Position numbers and translations under genes: made by a program. From Streptomyces megasporus (lineage in GTDB: Bacteria > Actinomycetota > Actinomycetes > Streptomycetales > Streptomycetaceae): a stretch of 64,000 nucleotides of DNA. Location of the stretch: positions 124,001 through 188,000 of the forward strand of contig NZ_JODL01000002.1 in assembly GCF_000718985.1 (NCBI RefSeq). Reading direction: 5' to 3'. The notes beneath the pieces were generated by a model. It had not been told where the DNA came from. It searched no databases and saw only the letters and a list, made by a program, of their open reading frames with translations. Every line of letters starts with the position of its first letter. Position 1 is the stretch's first letter. Positions 13,337 to 49,806 of this stretch are shown here, piece after piece.

Positions 13337-13359
13337 ACCGTATGAGCCACCACTGACAA
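13337..13359 (-). promoter_or_regulatory. PafBC/RecA-NDp-type DNA-damage promoter
   Basis: On the minus strand TTGTCAGTG, then exactly 8 bases, then TACGGT. This fits the published mycobacterial LexA-independent DNA-damage motif TTGTCRGTG-N8-TAnnnT, recognised through PafBC. It faces the SWIM gene with a leader of roughly 95 bases. Confidence 0.65.
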
Positions 13360-13406: not shown

Positions 13407-13429
13407 ATGTCAGTGGTGACGTGCAAGGT
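13407..13429 (+). promoter_or_regulatory. Degenerate PafBC-type promoter facing the MoxR operon
   Basis: ATGTCAGTG, 8 bases, then CAAGGT: two mismatches to TTGTCRGTG-N8-TAnnnT. It is the inverted partner of the element at 13337-13359; 11 bases (TGTCAGTGGTG) match exactly. Its position also argues against starting the MoxR protein at 13407. Confidence 0.4.
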
Positions 13430-42710: not shown

Positions 42711-42782
42711 GTCGAGGGGTCGAGAGGTCAGGGGGTCGAGGGGTCGAGAGGTCAGGGGGTCGAGGGGCCGAGGTGTCAGGGA
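42711..42782. repeat. Three tandem 24-bp repeats
   Basis: Units GTCGAGGGGTCGAGAGGTCAGGGG at 42711 and 42735 are identical; the third at 42759 is diverged at a few bases and covers the stop codon of the TetR gene. Read on the minus strand each unit holds Pro/Leu/Thr codons, so the repeat could have extended the C-terminus in the past. Confidence 0.8.
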
Positions 42783-43375
42783 GGCGTCAGGGCATCCATG
42801 ACGACCTCGGCGATGGATTCCAGGGCGGCGCGGTCGGCGCCGCCCTGTCCGGAGACCCGCATGCCACCGATCGCCGCGTCGACGAAACGGGCCAGCGCCT
42901 CCGGGCCCCGTGGGGAAGTGATGCTCCCGTCGCGCCGGCCGGCCTCCATCACGGCGCGGAGGGCGGCCAGCCGGCGGGCGGTGTCGCGCTCCAGGATTCC
43001 GGCCACCCCGGCATCGCGGGCGGCCAGTTCGACGGTGGTGTTCACCGTCAGGCATCCCATGCTGCGGCCCCCGGTCCGATGGTCCGTCTCGTTCTCGATG
43101 ATCCTGGCGAGCAGGTCGCGGACACGGTCGGCCGCCGTTCGCCCGGGATTCTCCAGGATCGCCACCTGAGCGTTCGTCATGGTGTCGATGTAGTGGGCGA
43201 GGGCACGTTCGAACAGGTCGTGCTTGCTCTTGAACGTGTTGTAGATGCTGCTGCGACCCAGGCCGGTGGCGTCGCACAAGTCCTGGGTGGAAGTGGCCTC
43301 GTAGCCTTTCTCCCAGAAGGTGCGCATCGCCGCGTCCAGGGCCCGCTCCTCGTCGAAGGTCCTCGGCCGGGCCAT
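42776..43375 (-). CDS. TetR/AcrR-family regulator
   Basis: 199 residues. The N-terminal HTH (ARPRTFDEERALDAAMRTFW, TSTQDLCDATGLGRSSIYNT, FKSKHDLF) is followed by an all-helical ligand domain with ENETDHRTGGRSMGCLTVN, typical of the TetR_C_16/YdeS-like group. It likely represses the MFS gene downstream. The ATG at 43375 was preferred over the in-frame 43411 because the motif MARPRTFDEE is the usual start. Confidence 0.9.
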   Translation of the reverse strand: MARPRTFDEERALDAAMRTFWEKGYEATSTQDLCDATGLGRSSIYNTFKSKHDLFERALAHYIDTMTNAQVAILENPGRTAADRVRDLLARIIENETDHRTGGRSMGCLTVNTTVELAARDAGVAGILERDTARRLAALRAVMEAGRRDGSITSPRGPEALARFVDAAIGGMRVSGQGGADRAALESIAEVVMDALTPP

Positions 43376-43475: not shown

Positions 43476-43498
43476 TTGTCGGTGGCCGTCCCTAGAGT
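43476..43498 (+). promoter_or_regulatory. PafBC/RecA-NDp-type DNA-damage promoter
   Basis: TTGTCGGTG, exactly 8 bases, TAGAGT: a full match to TTGTCRGTG-N8-TAnnnT. It is 38 bases before the ATG of the tandem SUKH gene. Confidence 0.65.
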
Positions 43499-43536
43499 GG
43501 CGTCGGCCGAAGATCGACGACGAGCACGGGGGTGCC

Positions 43537-44775
43537 ATGGCGGACAGGCCGGTCACCGTTGGGGAGGACACGCTCCATCCGGCGATCACCCATGCGGCGA
43601 CACGCCGGGTGCTGACGCGGGAGGGGCTGCCGGCCGAGCACGGCCTGACGCGGTTCGCGCCGGTGGCCGAGGCACGGTTGGTGACCGTGCCGCACCTGGT
43701 CGCCGCGGAGGCGGACCCGACCGACCTCGACCCGTACATCGCGGAACTGGTGGTGATCGGTCACCTCGCGGTGCGGGAGGAGGAGACGCAGGAGGTCGTC
43801 CTCGACGGGGCCACCGGGCGGGTCTTCAGCCTGTACCTGTGGGACAAGTCCCCCGGCAACGCGGAGCTGTATCCGCTGGCGCCTTCCCTCGCGACGCTGA
43901 CGGATTTCCTGACGGCGGTGGACGACTTCGAGGCCCGGCGCGGCCCCTTCCGGCACCTGGCCGGCCGCACCGGCCCCGAAGCGGTCGCCGAGGCGTCCGA
44001 GCTGCTGCTGTCGGTCTTCGCCGGCGCGGACTGGGGGAGTGGAGACTGGGGGCCCGTCGGGGACCGGGCTGGCTGGGGGCATCCGGTGCCGGTCTTCTGG
44101 CGGATCGCCGCGCTGATACGGCCACTCGCCCTGATCGCCGGGCCCGGCGACGGCCTCCGGCTCGACCTGCCCCGGCAGGTGCTGGAGGAGGCGTTCGGCG
44201 CGGACCGGATCGTCCGCGTCGCCCCGGAGGAGCTGCCCGGGGAACTGGTGCACGAGCCCACCCGGCGCTTCCTGACCGAGGTGGGACTGCCGCGCGACGG
44301 CCTCATGTTCGGTCTCGACGGTGAGGAGGACGACCTGCTGCGGCCCCTGCCCGAGGTGGACGCGCGGTACCGGGCCATGCCGGAGTTGCGGCACCTGTTC
44401 CGCGACCCGGAGAGCGCCGACCACCTGCCCGCCGACGCCGACCACCTGCTGTCGATCGGCGGCCTGATCCACGACTTCGACGTGCTGCTCGACGGCCGTA
44501 CCGGGAAGGTCCTCTACGGCCAACTCGGCGACAGCGCCGTCACCCCGGTGAACGCCGACGTCTCCACCCTGGCCTTCACGGTGTGGACGCACCACCGCGA
44601 GCAGGTGCTGAACGAGGAGCACGACTTCACCCAGGACTTCTACCACGAGCTCGCCGACACCATGATCGGCGTCCTCGCCTCCCTCGATCCGGTCGCCTGC
44701 CTGCCACCGGAGGGGCCCGACGACTTCCGCTACTGGCCCGAGGTCTTCCACGACGAGGCGGGCGGCGTCCTCTGA
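43537..44775 (+). CDS. Tandem SUKH-4-type immunity protein
   Basis: 412 residues. Two SUKH-like units: first about 20-215 with TRFAPVAEARLV, AELVVIGHLA and VLDGATGRVFSLYLWD; second about 225-400 with RFLTEVGLPRDGLMFG, LLSIGGLIHDFDVLL, DGRTGKVLYGQLG and NADVSTLAFTVWTHH. SUKH proteins are immunity proteins against nuclease and deaminase toxins. It is the only plus-strand gene of the toxin island and has its own PafBC-type promoter. No linked toxin is obvious on its strand. The GGGGGTGCC before the ATG is a weak ribosome site. Confidence 0.8.
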   Translation: MADRPVTVGEDTLHPAITHAATRRVLTREGLPAEHGLTRFAPVAEARLVTVPHLVAAEADPTDLDPYIAELVVIGHLAVREEETQEVVLDGATGRVFSLYLWDKSPGNAELYPLAPSLATLTDFLTAVDDFEARRGPFRHLAGRTGPEAVAEASELLLSVFAGADWGSGDWGPVGDRAGWGHPVPVFWRIAALIRPLALIAGPGDGLRLDLPRQVLEEAFGADRIVRVAPEELPGELVHEPTRRFLTEVGLPRDGLMFGLDGEEDDLLRPLPEVDARYRAMPELRHLFRDPESADHLPADADHLLSIGGLIHDFDVLLDGRTGKVLYGQLGDSAVTPVNADVSTLAFTVWTHHREQVLNEEHDFTQDFYHELADTMIGVLASLDPVACLPPEGPDDFRYWPEVFHDEAGGVL

Positions 44776-46266: not shown

Positions 46267-46536
46267 CTACTTTCCGTGTGCTTCCTTCAGGGCTTTCAGA
46301 TATTCTTTGTGCTCTTTGTTCTTCGTTGATGGATCATCTTGTCTGTAGTCGGCGGCGTGAGTGACGGTGGTGTCCGGGAATCGGCTGTCCAGCCATCGGT
46401 TGCACCTAGGATTCTTCTGACAGGGCTCGCGTTCCGTGAATATCTCCTTCAGTCCGGATTCATTTCCCGTGTGTATCAGTGGGTGTCCAATGATTCTCTC
46501 GGAGTGGAAATTTCCGTCGCTTCGACCGATCAGGAT
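46267..46536 (-). pseudogene. Orphan C-terminal deaminase toxin tip
   Basis: About 89 residues of a deaminase domain with no secretion part. It reads ILIGRSDGNFHSERIIG, EIFTEREPCQKNPRCNRWLD, TVTHAADYRQDD and ends KALKEAHGK. It aligns with the C-terminus of the intact toxin at 48235 at roughly half identity, keeping the HSE and PCx5C zinc motifs. It stops being similar at about 46536, where the ISAs1 remnant begins, so the upstream part was lost by insertion or rearrangement. Confidence 0.8.
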
Positions 46537-47133
46537 GGACGCACTGCACACCCAGCACGACACCGCGACCCTGATAACCGGGGCCGGGGGAGACTACGTC
46601 CTGACCGTGGAGGCGAACCAGAAATCCTTGTACGCACAGCTCAAGACGCTTCCCCGGACCTCGATACCCGCCGTCACCAGGACGGACCGAGGCCATGGAC
46701 GCCGCGCCACCCGCACCATCAAGGTCGTCGACGTGCCGGCCTGGGTCGAGTTCGCCGGGGCCCGCCAAGTCGCCCAACTGCGGCGCACCGTCACCCGCAA
46801 GGGCCGACGGACCGTCGAGATCGTCTACCTGATCACCAGCGCGGACGCCCGCACCGCGCCGCCCGCCGTCCTGGCCACATGGGTGCAGTCGCACTGGGAG
46901 GTCGAGAACCGCCTGCACCGGGTCCGCGACGTCACCTTCGACGAAGACCGCTCCCATATCCGCACCGGCAACGCACCCCGCGTCATGGCGGGCCTGCGCG
47001 ACACCGCGATCACCCTGCTGCGACTGCACGGACACGACAACATCGCCGCCGCCCTACGGCATCACGCACGCCACACCGACCGCCCCATCAACCTGCTCCT
47101 GATGGCGTGATCAACAACTTTGCCGGGACCCTG
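46535..47133 (+). mobile_element. ISAs1-family insertion sequence remnant
   Basis: The reading frame 46535-47110 gives the C-terminal two thirds of an ISAs1 transposase: DALHTQHDTATLITG, YVLTVEANQKSLYAQLKTLP, HWEVENRLHRVRDVTFDED and HRDT-like endings. The N-terminal third and the left end are missing. The right end, CAACTTTGCCGGGACCCTG (47115-47133), looks like the terminal inverted repeat of this family. The element is not able to move on its own. It splits the orphan toxin tip from SUKH remnants. Confidence 0.85.
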
Positions 47134-47142
47134 GGGAGAGGA

Positions 47143-47505
47143 TCAGGCCGATCTCTTGACCGTGAGTTCGTTGTGTCGCATCCCACCGTGGGGTTTCGGG
47201 GAAACGAACGAGTCCCTGCCGAACATGGTGAGCGTGAGGTAGCCCAGCCGGACCCAGCCGTCCACATCCTGTGGGAGTTTTCAGCCGAGCCCGGCGAGGT
47301 CTTCACCGCACAGGACCTGTCCCGGGGAGAAGCCGTCCAGGAAACCGAAGGCGAACTGCGCCGTCTCCGGAATCTCCACCGTGGTGAGGAACTCCAGTGC
47401 CTCACCGTGGAACTCGTACCGCTCGGCGTCCTCCCGGGACAGCACGTGCACGTTCTCCGCGCCCACGGCGGCGACCAGCTCCCGGTGCTCAACGGTGAAC
47501 GGCAA
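47143..47505 (-). pseudogene. Frameshifted SUKH immunity gene
   Basis: From the TTG at 47505 (GGAG upstream) the frame reads PFTVEHRELVAAVGAENVHV, then EALEFLTTVEIPETAQ, and stops near 47281. The next part continues in another frame: DGWVRLGYLTLTMFG, which matches the GWVVLG segment of intact copies, and ends 10 bases from the IS right end at 47143. The C-terminal half is missing. A frameshift and IS-linked loss broke this gene. Confidence 0.7.
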
Positions 47506-47509
47506 CGCT

Positions 47510-47614
47510 TCTCCACAGCAGCCGGCGGCAGAGTGAACTCGCCGAGGGGAACAGAAACCTACCCTGAAAGCCGAACCGACGGACAAGGTCGCCGGCGCTG
47601 ACGGCGTGGCTCAT
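47510..47614 (-). pseudogene. N-terminal SUKH remnant
   Basis: From an ATG at 47614: MSHAVSAGDLVRRFGFQGRF, resembling KLEDLVRLYGIEGVVFF of the intact SUKH gene. After about 20 residues the similarity moves to another frame (PLGEFTLPPAAVEK, like FPLEADAHLHADTA) and then fuses into the next remnant. It shows a further immunity copy once stood here. Confidence 0.55.
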
Positions 47615-47651: not shown

Positions 47652-48221
47652 CTAGCCCCACATCCCGAGAGAAATCTCTTCGAAAACTTTGCTCCACTCG
47701 CCGTCGGCGCTGGCGAACGGGGTTTCATCGACGGCCGTGATGCGCTGTCTCATATGCTCGACGACGTCGGCGTATCCCTGCATGTCGCGCGGCGGAAGTT
47801 TCGTGTACTGGCGTTTCCCCTCTTCGAGGACGGTCAGGGCGTGCACGAGCGAGGAGACATCGGTATGCATGGGGACGTAAAATTCCTCGCCTTCCGGGAA
47901 GGAATAGATTCTACCGTCCACTGGGTCGAGAGCCACGGTGGCATACACGAACTGGCCCAGCACCTCCCACCCTTCGGATTCAGGGGGACACTGTGCTCCG
48001 TCCTCCTCGAACGAGAGTTTCAGGCTCGGAACAGGCTCGAAATCCGCTGGATCTTCCGGGTCCACCATAGCCGTGAAGAAGGAGCTTGAAGGAATGCCCA
48101 CGGTGGACAGGAATCGGGCCGTATCAGCATGCAAGTGAGCGTCGGCCTCCAGCGGGAAGTATGCAACGTTGCAGATCCCGAAGGTCTGCAGGACGCCCTC
48201 GGCGCGAATAGTGGTCAACAC
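47652..48221 (-). CDS. SUKH-4-type immunity protein, partner of the deaminase toxin
   Basis: 189 residues. FGICNVAYFPLEADAHLHAD, RFLSTVGIPSSSFF, GWEVLGQFVYATVALDPVDG, HTDVSSLVHALTVLE and the C-terminal EWSKVFEEISLGMWG. It follows the toxin gene by 13 bases with GAGGAGGG before its GTG start, so toxin and immunity are made together. It should bind and block the deaminase domain in the cytoplasm of the producer. Confidence 0.88.
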   Translation of the reverse strand: MLTTIRAEGVLQTFGICNVAYFPLEADAHLHADTARFLSTVGIPSSSFFTAMVDPEDPADFEPVPSLKLSFEEDGAQCPPESEGWEVLGQFVYATVALDPVDGRIYSFPEGEEFYVPMHTDVSSLVHALTVLEEGKRQYTKLPPRDMQGYADVVEHMRQRITAVDETPFASADGEWSKVFEEISLGMWG

Positions 48222-48234
48222 CGATCATCCCTCC

Positions 48235-49806
48235 TCAGGGGCGCCCTTGTGCTTTGTGGCGCTTCTCCAGTTTTTCCATGTACTCGAGGTGCTCTTTGTC
48301 TCTTTTGGACGTCTTGTCTGACTGGTCATAAGAGTTCGCGTGTGTCACCTCAAGGTCCGGATTCCTGGATCTGAAGTACAGATCCAGCCACTGGTCGCAT
48401 TTTGGTGATAATTGACAAGGCTCCCGCTCGGTGTAAATTTCGCGGAGATTTTCTTCCCGGCCGTGTTTCAGTAGCGGGTACCCGATCGTTTTCTCCGAAT
48501 GGGGCCCCCTGCTGTCGCCGACAAGGATGATGGCCTTGCCGGTCTCTGGGGCCATGTAGCGCCCTGCCGCGAAGTTCGTGCCTCCGTAGTCGTCTTTCGC
48601 GAAGCGCGCGATCTCGGTGGCCCGCGACAGATCGGTGCTTCCAGGGGGAATCTTCCGTGAAGATACCTTGGGGCCTTGCCTCCCCGCCGGGACAGGGTAG
48701 GGGTTCCTGCCCTTCTTGCCCTTGCCTTTCGGGCGCCATACTGTTCCGTCTTTCTCTAGAATATTCCATATGCCTGACTTGTCGTCCTTCGGGACATCGC
48801 TCAGCCGGCCGTCGGGATGAAGAACCTTGACCGACCCGTCGGCGTTGAGGAGGTACATCGGGACGTCGTCGTCATCGTCGCTGTCGCGGCGGCACCTGTC
48901 GAAGTCGTCTTTGGTGTCCTTCTCGTTCCGGTCGTTGGACCGCTTCGTCTTGTCCAGGCCCTCGACGTTCTTCTCGAGCTCCTTCTGCATCCTGTGTGCG
49001 GACTGTTCGACTTTGTCCTCGGCCTTGTCGATGGCGGCGCCGAACTTGGCGAAGCGGTCGTCCTTCTTGGAAACCAGGCTGCGCTTCTGGCGCTTGCCGG
49101 TGAAACGATCCTTCTTGTCCGTGAAGCGCTCGTGTTCCTGGCCGAGTTCGGCGATGGCGTCCTCGAACTCCGCGAACTCGATCCACAGCTCCTGCCCCAG
49201 GGCGGCGGAGCCCTCGGGGAGCGGTTTGCCGTTCCTGCCGCGCCCGCCTGAGGTGGTGCTGCCATCGAAGAGCCCTTCGAGCAGCCCCATGACCTCGCCC
49301 TCGATCTTCTGGACGGCCAGGTCGACGAGTTTGGAGACGAGGAGGTCGATCGCCTCCTTGACGGCCTGTTTGAGCGCGGCCACGGCCGCGGCGCTCAGCA
49401 GGGCGGTGAGCCCCCCGGTGAAGAAGGCGCCGACGATGCCACCGGTGACGGTGGCAGCGGAGGCCGTGACGTTGCCGATGATCGCCAGTTTGCAGGTGGT
49501 GACGTAGGTCGCACCGGAGTCCATGGCGCCGGCCAGGACGTCGACGGCCTTGGCGAGGTTCTTCATGTCTTGGCCGGAGACCTTGCCCCAGCGCTGTTTG
49601 AAGGCATCGACGGCCTCGCCCTTGCTGCGGCCGGCGGTGATGTGACTGCAGGCCCGGTCGGCCTTCTGAATGGTGTCGCGCAGCTCGTCCGCGAAGTCGC
49701 GGTACTCCTTCGCGGTATCCCTGAGCTCGTCCTCGTCGATGTCCGGCCAGTCGATGCCGATGAACTCCAGAACGTCCCGCACTTCGTCAGGCAGTTGTAT
49801 GCCCAC
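48235..49806 (-). CDS. WXG100-like polymorphic toxin with C-terminal nucleic-acid deaminase domain
   Basis: 523 residues. The N-terminal 110 residues are a WXG100/LXG-type helical hairpin with a central W-G (RWGKVSG, Trp73), which would direct export by a type VII (Esx) secretion system. A Gly/Ala-rich hydrophobic region (110-180) and a long highly charged coiled coil (about 215-320, including DSDDDDD) follow. The C-terminal toxin has a zinc deaminase site: His436-Ser-Glu438 and PC464 with Cys470 (TEREPCQLSPKC). It resembles the XOO_2897-like group; the target (DNA, RNA or nucleotide) is unknown. GTG start. Confidence 0.85.
   Translation of the reverse strand: MGIQLPDEVRDVLEFIGIDWPDIDEDELRDTAKEYRDFADELRDTIQKADRACSHITAGRSKGEAVDAFKQRWGKVSGQDMKNLAKAVDVLAGAMDSGATYVTTCKLAIIGNVTASAATVTGGIVGAFFTGGLTALLSAAAVAALKQAVKEAIDLLVSKLVDLAVQKIEGEVMGLLEGLFDGSTTSGGRGRNGKPLPEGSAALGQELWIEFAEFEDAIAELGQEHERFTDKKDRFTGKRQKRSLVSKKDDRFAKFGAAIDKAEDKVEQSAHRMQKELEKNVEGLDKTKRSNDRNEKDTKDDFDRCRRDSDDDDDVPMYLLNADGSVKVLHPDGRLSDVPKDDKSGIWNILEKDGTVWRPKGKGKKGRNPYPVPAGRQGPKVSSRKIPPGSTDLSRATEIARFAKDDYGGTNFAAGRYMAPETGKAIILVGDSRGPHSEKTIGYPLLKHGREENLREIYTEREPCQLSPKCDQWLDLYFRSRNPDLEVTHANSYDQSDKTSKRDKEHLEYMEKLEKRHKAQGRP

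Follow-up and report, generated by a model that had tools for sequence, protein, structure and literature searches.

A near-invariant DNA-damage-type promoter precedes a fast-evolving tandem SUKH-4 gene, a candidate orphan immunity gene, in Streptomyces

Ties between toxin immunity and DNA damage have been described before. Colicin operons are toxin-immunity systems wired to the SOS response (PMC2994835), and in Streptomyces coelicolor the macrodomain protein SCO6735 is reported to have a RecA-NDp promoter, to be induced 5-fold by UV (PMC5087735) and to neutralise the DNA-modifying toxin DarT (PMC9411070); the statement in a sequence-only reading of the locus analysed here, that no link of this kind has been described, was therefore too strong. 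SUKH proteins are described as an immunity superfamily found mainly with polymorphic toxins, and the toxins listed with them comprise restriction-fold nucleases, deaminases of the YwqJ, XOO_2897 and BURPS668_1122 types, some proteases and others (PMC3482391). The dual-SUKH orphan immunity proteins of gut Bacteroidales are reported to be fast-evolving and protective, the C-terminal SUKH domain being sufficient (PMC12247911, a preprint); in the available text of that preprint on rAID proteins the phrase 'DNA damage' has 0 occurrences. PafBC is reported to act by sigma adaptation once loaded with single-stranded DNA (ssDNA; PMC11804915). In 2022, an initial search was reported to suggest that the PafBC motif of M. 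smegmatis is unconserved in S. venezuelae, and whether Streptomyces has a response of this kind was left undecided (PMC9380542). Among the matches listed in the open-licence PMC literature, none deals with a SUKH gene controlled by PafBC or by damage. Immunity proteins are usually regarded as constant or toxin-linked.

We analysed a stretch of 64,000 nucleotides from Streptomyces megasporus (the window; contig NZ_JODL01000002.1, positions 124,001 to 188,000), in which a PafBC-type site sits within the 161 nt that separate a divergent TetR-family gene from a tandem SUKH-4 gene on the plus strand. The features concerned are the following.

43476-43484, plus strand: -26 element of the predicted PafBC/RecA-NDp promoter, TTGTCGGTG; exact consensus match, kept 5' of orthologs
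43493-43498, plus strand: -10 element TAGAGT, 8 nt 3' of the -26 element; exact TANNNT at fixed spacing
43499-43536, plus strand: leader of 38 nt; sequence unconserved in relatives at scattered loci (flank identity near random)
43537-44775, plus strand: tandem SUKH-4 protein, 412 aa (translation, Pfam SUKH-4, AlphaFold model)
about 43543-44004, plus strand: N-domain match, SUKH-4
about 44170-44754, plus strand: C-domain match, SUKH-4
42776-43375, minus strand: divergent TetR-family regulator, context only (ORF with TetR_N; ATG start chosen by eye)
47652-48221, minus strand: SUKH-4 gene, likely the cognate immunity gene of the toxin, no PafBC site (ORF, Pfam)
48235-49806, minus strand: WXG100-type polymorphic toxin with C-terminal XOO_2897-like deaminase (PF14440; Pfam)

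The complete site, TTGTCGGTGGCCGTCCCTAGAGT, covers 43476-43498 on the plus strand, with the ATG at 43537 after 38 nt; the exact damage-type promoter TTGTCGGTG-N8-TAGAGT, proposed from the letters to lie 38 nt before the start codon of the tandem gene, is thus present as described. This string has a single exact occurrence in the window, and none of 100 shuffles contains it.

As the generic form of this motif we assumed TTGTCRGTG-N8-TANNNT, an extension of the one in the sequence-only reading, whose fit is supported because its matches precede repair genes. The 5.85-Mb genome contains 12 exact matches, compared with 0 for a reversed-pattern control and about 0.1 expected from the base composition of the window. 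The 11 sites other than the one studied here precede recA, uvrB, ruvC, ung, dnaX (DNA polymerase III gamma/tau subunit), an AlkZ-like glycosylase gene, a RecD2-like helicase gene, two SWIM-finger genes, a JetA gene and the gene of a small protein without confident family, and 7 of the 11 lie 6-7 nt from the assigned start. Furthermore, pafA and the genes of a WYL protein (PafB-like) and an HTH_PafC plus WYL protein (PafC) lie close together, the latter two downstream of pafA. Judged from sequence, the consensus marks a real regulon in this genome. In a second Streptomyces genome (G066) we found 40 exact sites and read the 39 non-SUKH ones, one of which has no ORF. The genes headed by these sites include, by eye, recA, uvrA, uvrB, ruvC, ung, dnaX and radA, and Pfam analysis of ten of the proteins returned a 6-O-methylguanine methyltransferase, YjbR, WGR, three other families and four proteins without family; behind many of the sites the gene has no evident repair link. 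Repair genes stand behind many sites in both Streptomyces genomes whose sites were read. Five Streptomyces genomes, S. venezuelae not among them, carry 12-43 exact sites each, which bears on the question of a Streptomyces response raised in PMC9380542.

Other members of this site class were observed alongside. The window has two exact matches to the consensus, the one at 43476-43498 (plus) and a second at 13337-13359 (minus), which precedes a minus-strand SWIM zinc-finger gene; a 2-mismatch site at 13407-13429 (plus) is directed the opposite way, at a plus-strand gene, and the two opposed sites may therefore form a divergent damage-responsive pair. In G066, two similar OrfB_IS605/Cas12f1-like (TnpB) genes each have an exact PafBC site before them (L293 and L294; the call is by Pfam for L294, and L293 is alike by eye). 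An exact site also stands 7 nt upstream of a JetA3 gene of the Wadjet type (L010, G000:C22:25400-25422), a gene matched in 98 of the 101 genomes of a genus sample. The JetA site is exact in 11 of 30 genomes and has one mismatch in 5 of 30 (own genome counted), and this variability indicates that near-invariance is not automatic among PafBC sites.

Conservation of the site was followed with a profile built from 17 orthologs and run against named genomes, which returned at least 237 encoding stretches; the best 80 were kept, 79 of them titled Streptomyces and one Actinobacteria bacterium OV320. Homologs also occur in Actinocorallia, Actinomadura and Microbispora, and S. viridochromogenes DSM 40736 (L118) is an example of a laboratory Streptomyces with the gene. 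Within 350 nt upstream of the gene, 76 of these best 80 of at least 237 loci carry the exact site, 2 carry it with one mismatch and 2 have none, while 1512 control stretches of equal length yielded 0 exact sites and 1 with one mismatch. Absence of the motif upstream of orthologs had been named as one outcome that would refute the damage-sensing proposal, and it did not occur. The two loci without the site are S. sparsogenes (L049, full-length) and one where the N-terminal part of the gene is missing (L052). In the genus sample, which shares species with the named set of 80 and is not independent of it, 50 of the 101 genomes gave hits; 46 were inspected, the weak-hit genomes G038, G047, G057 and G063 being left outside, and 41 of the 46 have the site at 0-1 mismatch. 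The five lacking it are an N-truncated copy (L017), L185, which is a tandem gene of full length, and L195, L198 and L199, which are weaker SUKH-4 relatives. In the N-truncated copy (L017/L052), a -26-like TTGTCAGTGG without a -10 element stands just 5' of the remaining coding part, as if the rest had been removed by deletion.

The site is maintained in differing surroundings. Alignment covered 79 sites, 11 in clade A and 68 in clade B (groupings by identity and position, not by tree), L049 and L052 being omitted for want of a site. Clade A genes occupy scattered loci, and their mean pairwise identity drops from 0.97 across the 12 specified motif bases to 0.35 and 0.34, near random, in the 60-nt flanks on the two sides; this reflects selection on the promoter and not regional shared descent. 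The leader measures 35-217 nt (median 90) in 77 of the 78 site-bearing relatives among the best 80 of at least 237 loci, and the site is also kept where a single SUKH domain is detected (L165, L166 with one mismatch, L167, L169, L170, L192 and L193). These observations support the view that the tandem SUKH-4 gene is driven by a genuine, selectively maintained PafBC/RecA-NDp promoter, and from them we strongly infer its control by PafBC and DNA damage. The same best 80 of at least 237 loci contain 46 other exact sites, of which 45 look like a single orthologous position on the opposite strand, 6-10 kb upstream; at the three loci opened (L054, L069 and L118) this site runs antisense within a coding region that is hexosaminidase-like by eye, and we therefore did not count these sites as promoters.

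The promoter appears specific to this gene. A search of other SUKH genes for the motif, as suggested in the sequence-only reading, came back empty: at 0-1 mismatch the site precedes 0 of the 6 other SUKH-4 matches in the S. megasporus genome and 0 of 23 SUKH-4 matches in relatives without the ortholog (19 of 20 relatives), with 1.5 kb upstream examined for most, 750 nt for L134 and only a contig end for L133.

The protein itself was correctly labelled a tandem SUKH protein, because PF14435 (SUKH-4) matches two stretches of its 412 residues (E 2.1e-50; 171.8 bits against a curated cut-off of 25.5). The AlphaFold model (pLDDT 89.5) has the SUKH fold, and its C-domain resembles YobK, Knr4 and Syd with fold matches of middling Z (best 6.8). 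SUKH-4 is the sole Pfam match, there is no macrodomain, and PADLOC gives no match for the protein. At 65 of the best 80 of at least 237 loci the gene occupies one stable place with a xanthine dehydrogenase (XDH) gene upstream and often MFS, Fic/DOC and helicase genes downstream (neighbours taken from a simple in-house gene caller, one representative of each of the three named by Pfam); at the remaining loci, the neighbours sampled are regulators, transporters, enzymes or unnamed. The slot between the SUKH gene and the helicase gene is variable and in 29 of the best 80 of at least 237 loci holds a Fic/DOC-type gene, in many cases preceded by a small ORF (e.g., L058, L059, L065 and L089; Pfam on one representative). 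Across the 65 loci where SUKH and XDH genes are both present, the SUKH protein is less identical than its XDH neighbour in 2080 of 2080 pairs, and its median dN/dS is 0.455 against 0.075-0.216 for four neighbours, a value that may partly express relaxed constraint and that spurious N-terminal extensions from the gene caller may inflate. The N-domain is less conserved than the C-domain and is sometimes missing among relatives. By these comparisons the tandem protein evolves fast, as orphan immunity proteins do.

The best 80 of at least 237 loci were scanned for a toxin partner. Profiles for SUKH-4 (broad) and the deaminase, which recover 4 of 4 other intact SUKH-4 genes and 3 of 3 deaminase stretches in a slice of the window, found another SUKH-4 ORF or a related deaminase in 0 of the 80; a narrower SUKH-4 profile, which finds 2 of the 4 other intact window genes, likewise found none. 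Of these loci 67 extend over at least 20 kb and 13 are shortened by contig ends, and toxins of other families were checked by Pfam in the sampled neighbours. Within the scanned families and loci, then, the gene has no linked toxin, and the usual SUKH-4 arrangement of a gene beside its toxin is seen at none of the 80.

We therefore favour, with a probability of roughly 0.55, a reading in which the gene belongs to the PafBC DNA-damage regulon and encodes an orphan SUKH-4 protein that stands alone and has a putative immunity function. The promoter-directing mechanism of PafBC is published for mycobacteria. On this model, DNA damage would generate ssDNA, and ssDNA-loaded PafBC would guide the housekeeping RNA polymerase onto the -26/-10 promoter. 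The SUKH protein would then build up, bind the incoming toxin or toxins and block them; the most plausible targets are toxins that damage nucleic acids, and their incomplete action would itself be the trigger. Damage makes sense as a trigger because the listed SUKH partners include nucleases and deaminases; as a signal of attack it would raise a general immunity factor. By extension, ssDNA sensing by PafBC might serve Streptomyces as an attack sensor, damage from competitors' toxins raising a fast-evolving, general-purpose SUKH immunity upon injury, in place of an immunity that is constant or tied to a toxin; this wider proposal is tentative, and we lean somewhat against it. Several points weigh against the orphan-immunity reading: the stable XDH position would also fit a general stress gene, the high dN/dS has the caveats given above, the fold matches are of middling Z, the site is missing at the full-length, N-truncated and weaker relatives already named, and immunity triggered by damage could come too late against a fast toxin.

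The chief alternative also places the gene in the PafBC regulon, making it a housekeeping adaptor or regulator of the damage response in the manner of Knr4 or Syd, and not a toxin neutraliser. The promoter shared with core repair genes, the XDH-adjacent position at 65 of the 80 loci, the want of a linked SUKH-4 gene or deaminase there and the presence of Knr4 and Syd among the fold matches are all consistent with it. However, the protein evolves fast, a site-bearing family gene is found in 41 of 101 genomes (the four weak-hit genomes lying outside the inspection), one of two domains is lost in some relatives and clade A positions are scattered, which together are unlike a core repair factor. 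As SUKH is, moreover, described as an immunity superfamily (PMC3482391), we consider such an adaptor rather unlikely.

The sequence-only reading had instead tied the gene to the deaminase toxin of the window, as cognate immunity induced by the DNA damage which that toxin inflicts. Proximity speaks for this: 46 nt separate the end of the tandem gene from a convergent SUKH-4 gene, the deaminase toxin is 3.5 kb away, and the surroundings form an array of deaminase and SUKH-4 genes. SUKH proteins are also listed alongside XOO_2897 deaminases (PMC3482391). However, the tandem gene lies on the opposite strand, convergent, and the toxin gene (48235-49806, minus) is already followed 13 nt downstream on its own strand by a SUKH-4 gene without a damage promoter. 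Related deaminases are, as noted, absent from the 80 scanned loci, whereas a PF14440/XOO_2897-like deaminase occurs in 97 of the 101 genus genomes and the tandem gene is patchy; DNA as target of the deaminase, which is recognised by its PF14440 domain, is itself putative. Because no such deaminase was found beside the gene at the 80 loci and the toxin has its own SUKH-4 gene, it seems incidental that the tandem gene lies near the array. At the relatives' loci scanned, the tandem gene is not partnered by a toxin like the window's deaminase; the proposed tie found no support, and we judge cognate immunity improbable. At 46267-47586 the array also includes the remnant of a deaminase gene and a disrupted SUKH-4 gene, beside a plus-strand ORF that is transposase-like by eye. 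In the four genomes compared by open frame (G000, G018, G031 and G046) the XOO_2897-like deaminase and a SUKH-4 domain are encoded in one long frame (e.g., G000:C16:22643-23596), and the common deaminase therefore may be a near-universal deaminase-SUKH fusion.

An immunity or inhibitor protein that targets a protein of a phage or mobile element, and whose expression rises upon DNA damage caused by infection or by the element, would likewise be in keeping with a damage promoter and fast evolution, and the PafBC site before JetA (Wadjet-type) implies that defence-like genes can belong to the regulon; against this, PADLOC does not match the tandem protein and SUKH is described mainly with polymorphic toxins (PMC3482391), making this reading improbable as well. 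That the motif is a chance match or functionless relic, as the two full-length relatives without it (L049 and L185) might hint, is scarcely credible given 12 matches in a genome where about 0.1 is expected and a motif kept amid diverged flanks.

The orphan-immunity reading, if true, would provide direct sequence evidence that bacteria treat DNA damage as an attack cue and respond with immunity in addition to repair. A switch conserved almost letter for letter before a fast-changing protein suggests that DNA damage is possibly read as a sign of attack, and the tandem SUKH-4 family, carried by dozens of named Streptomyces, makes the idea concretely testable. What appears novel is the combination of a near-invariant damage promoter with an orphan immunity family, each kind being already known.

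Compared with the PafBC regulon and the RecA-NDp promoters of Mycobacterium and other actinomycetes, the locus shares the -26/-10 layout that the repair-gene sites here also have, in a genome with pafBC, and differs in that the gene is a member of an immunity family and has leaders of 35-217 nt in its family, against mostly 6-7 nt. SCO6735 is likewise a stand-alone, antitoxin-like Streptomyces gene with the same promoter class and, as reported, a site in several species; it is, however, described as a lesion-reversing enzyme that also inhibits DarT and is highly conserved across Streptomyces, whereas the tandem gene product is a fast-evolving SUKH protein without a macrodomain, so that the two are compared only in how they might work. 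SOS-controlled colicin operons similarly tie toxin-immunity to DNA damage but are described as LexA-repressed and toxin-producing, with most cells expressing the immunity gene of colicin K, whereas the tandem gene would be under an activator (PafBC) and comes without a toxin gene. The dual-SUKH proteins of the rAID I2 family, as far as the preprint describes them, resemble the tandem protein in that they carry two SUKH domains, of which the N-terminal one is more variable, diverge fast and lack a linked toxin; they differ in lying in rAID arrays with a recombinase and in being distant in sequence and phylum.
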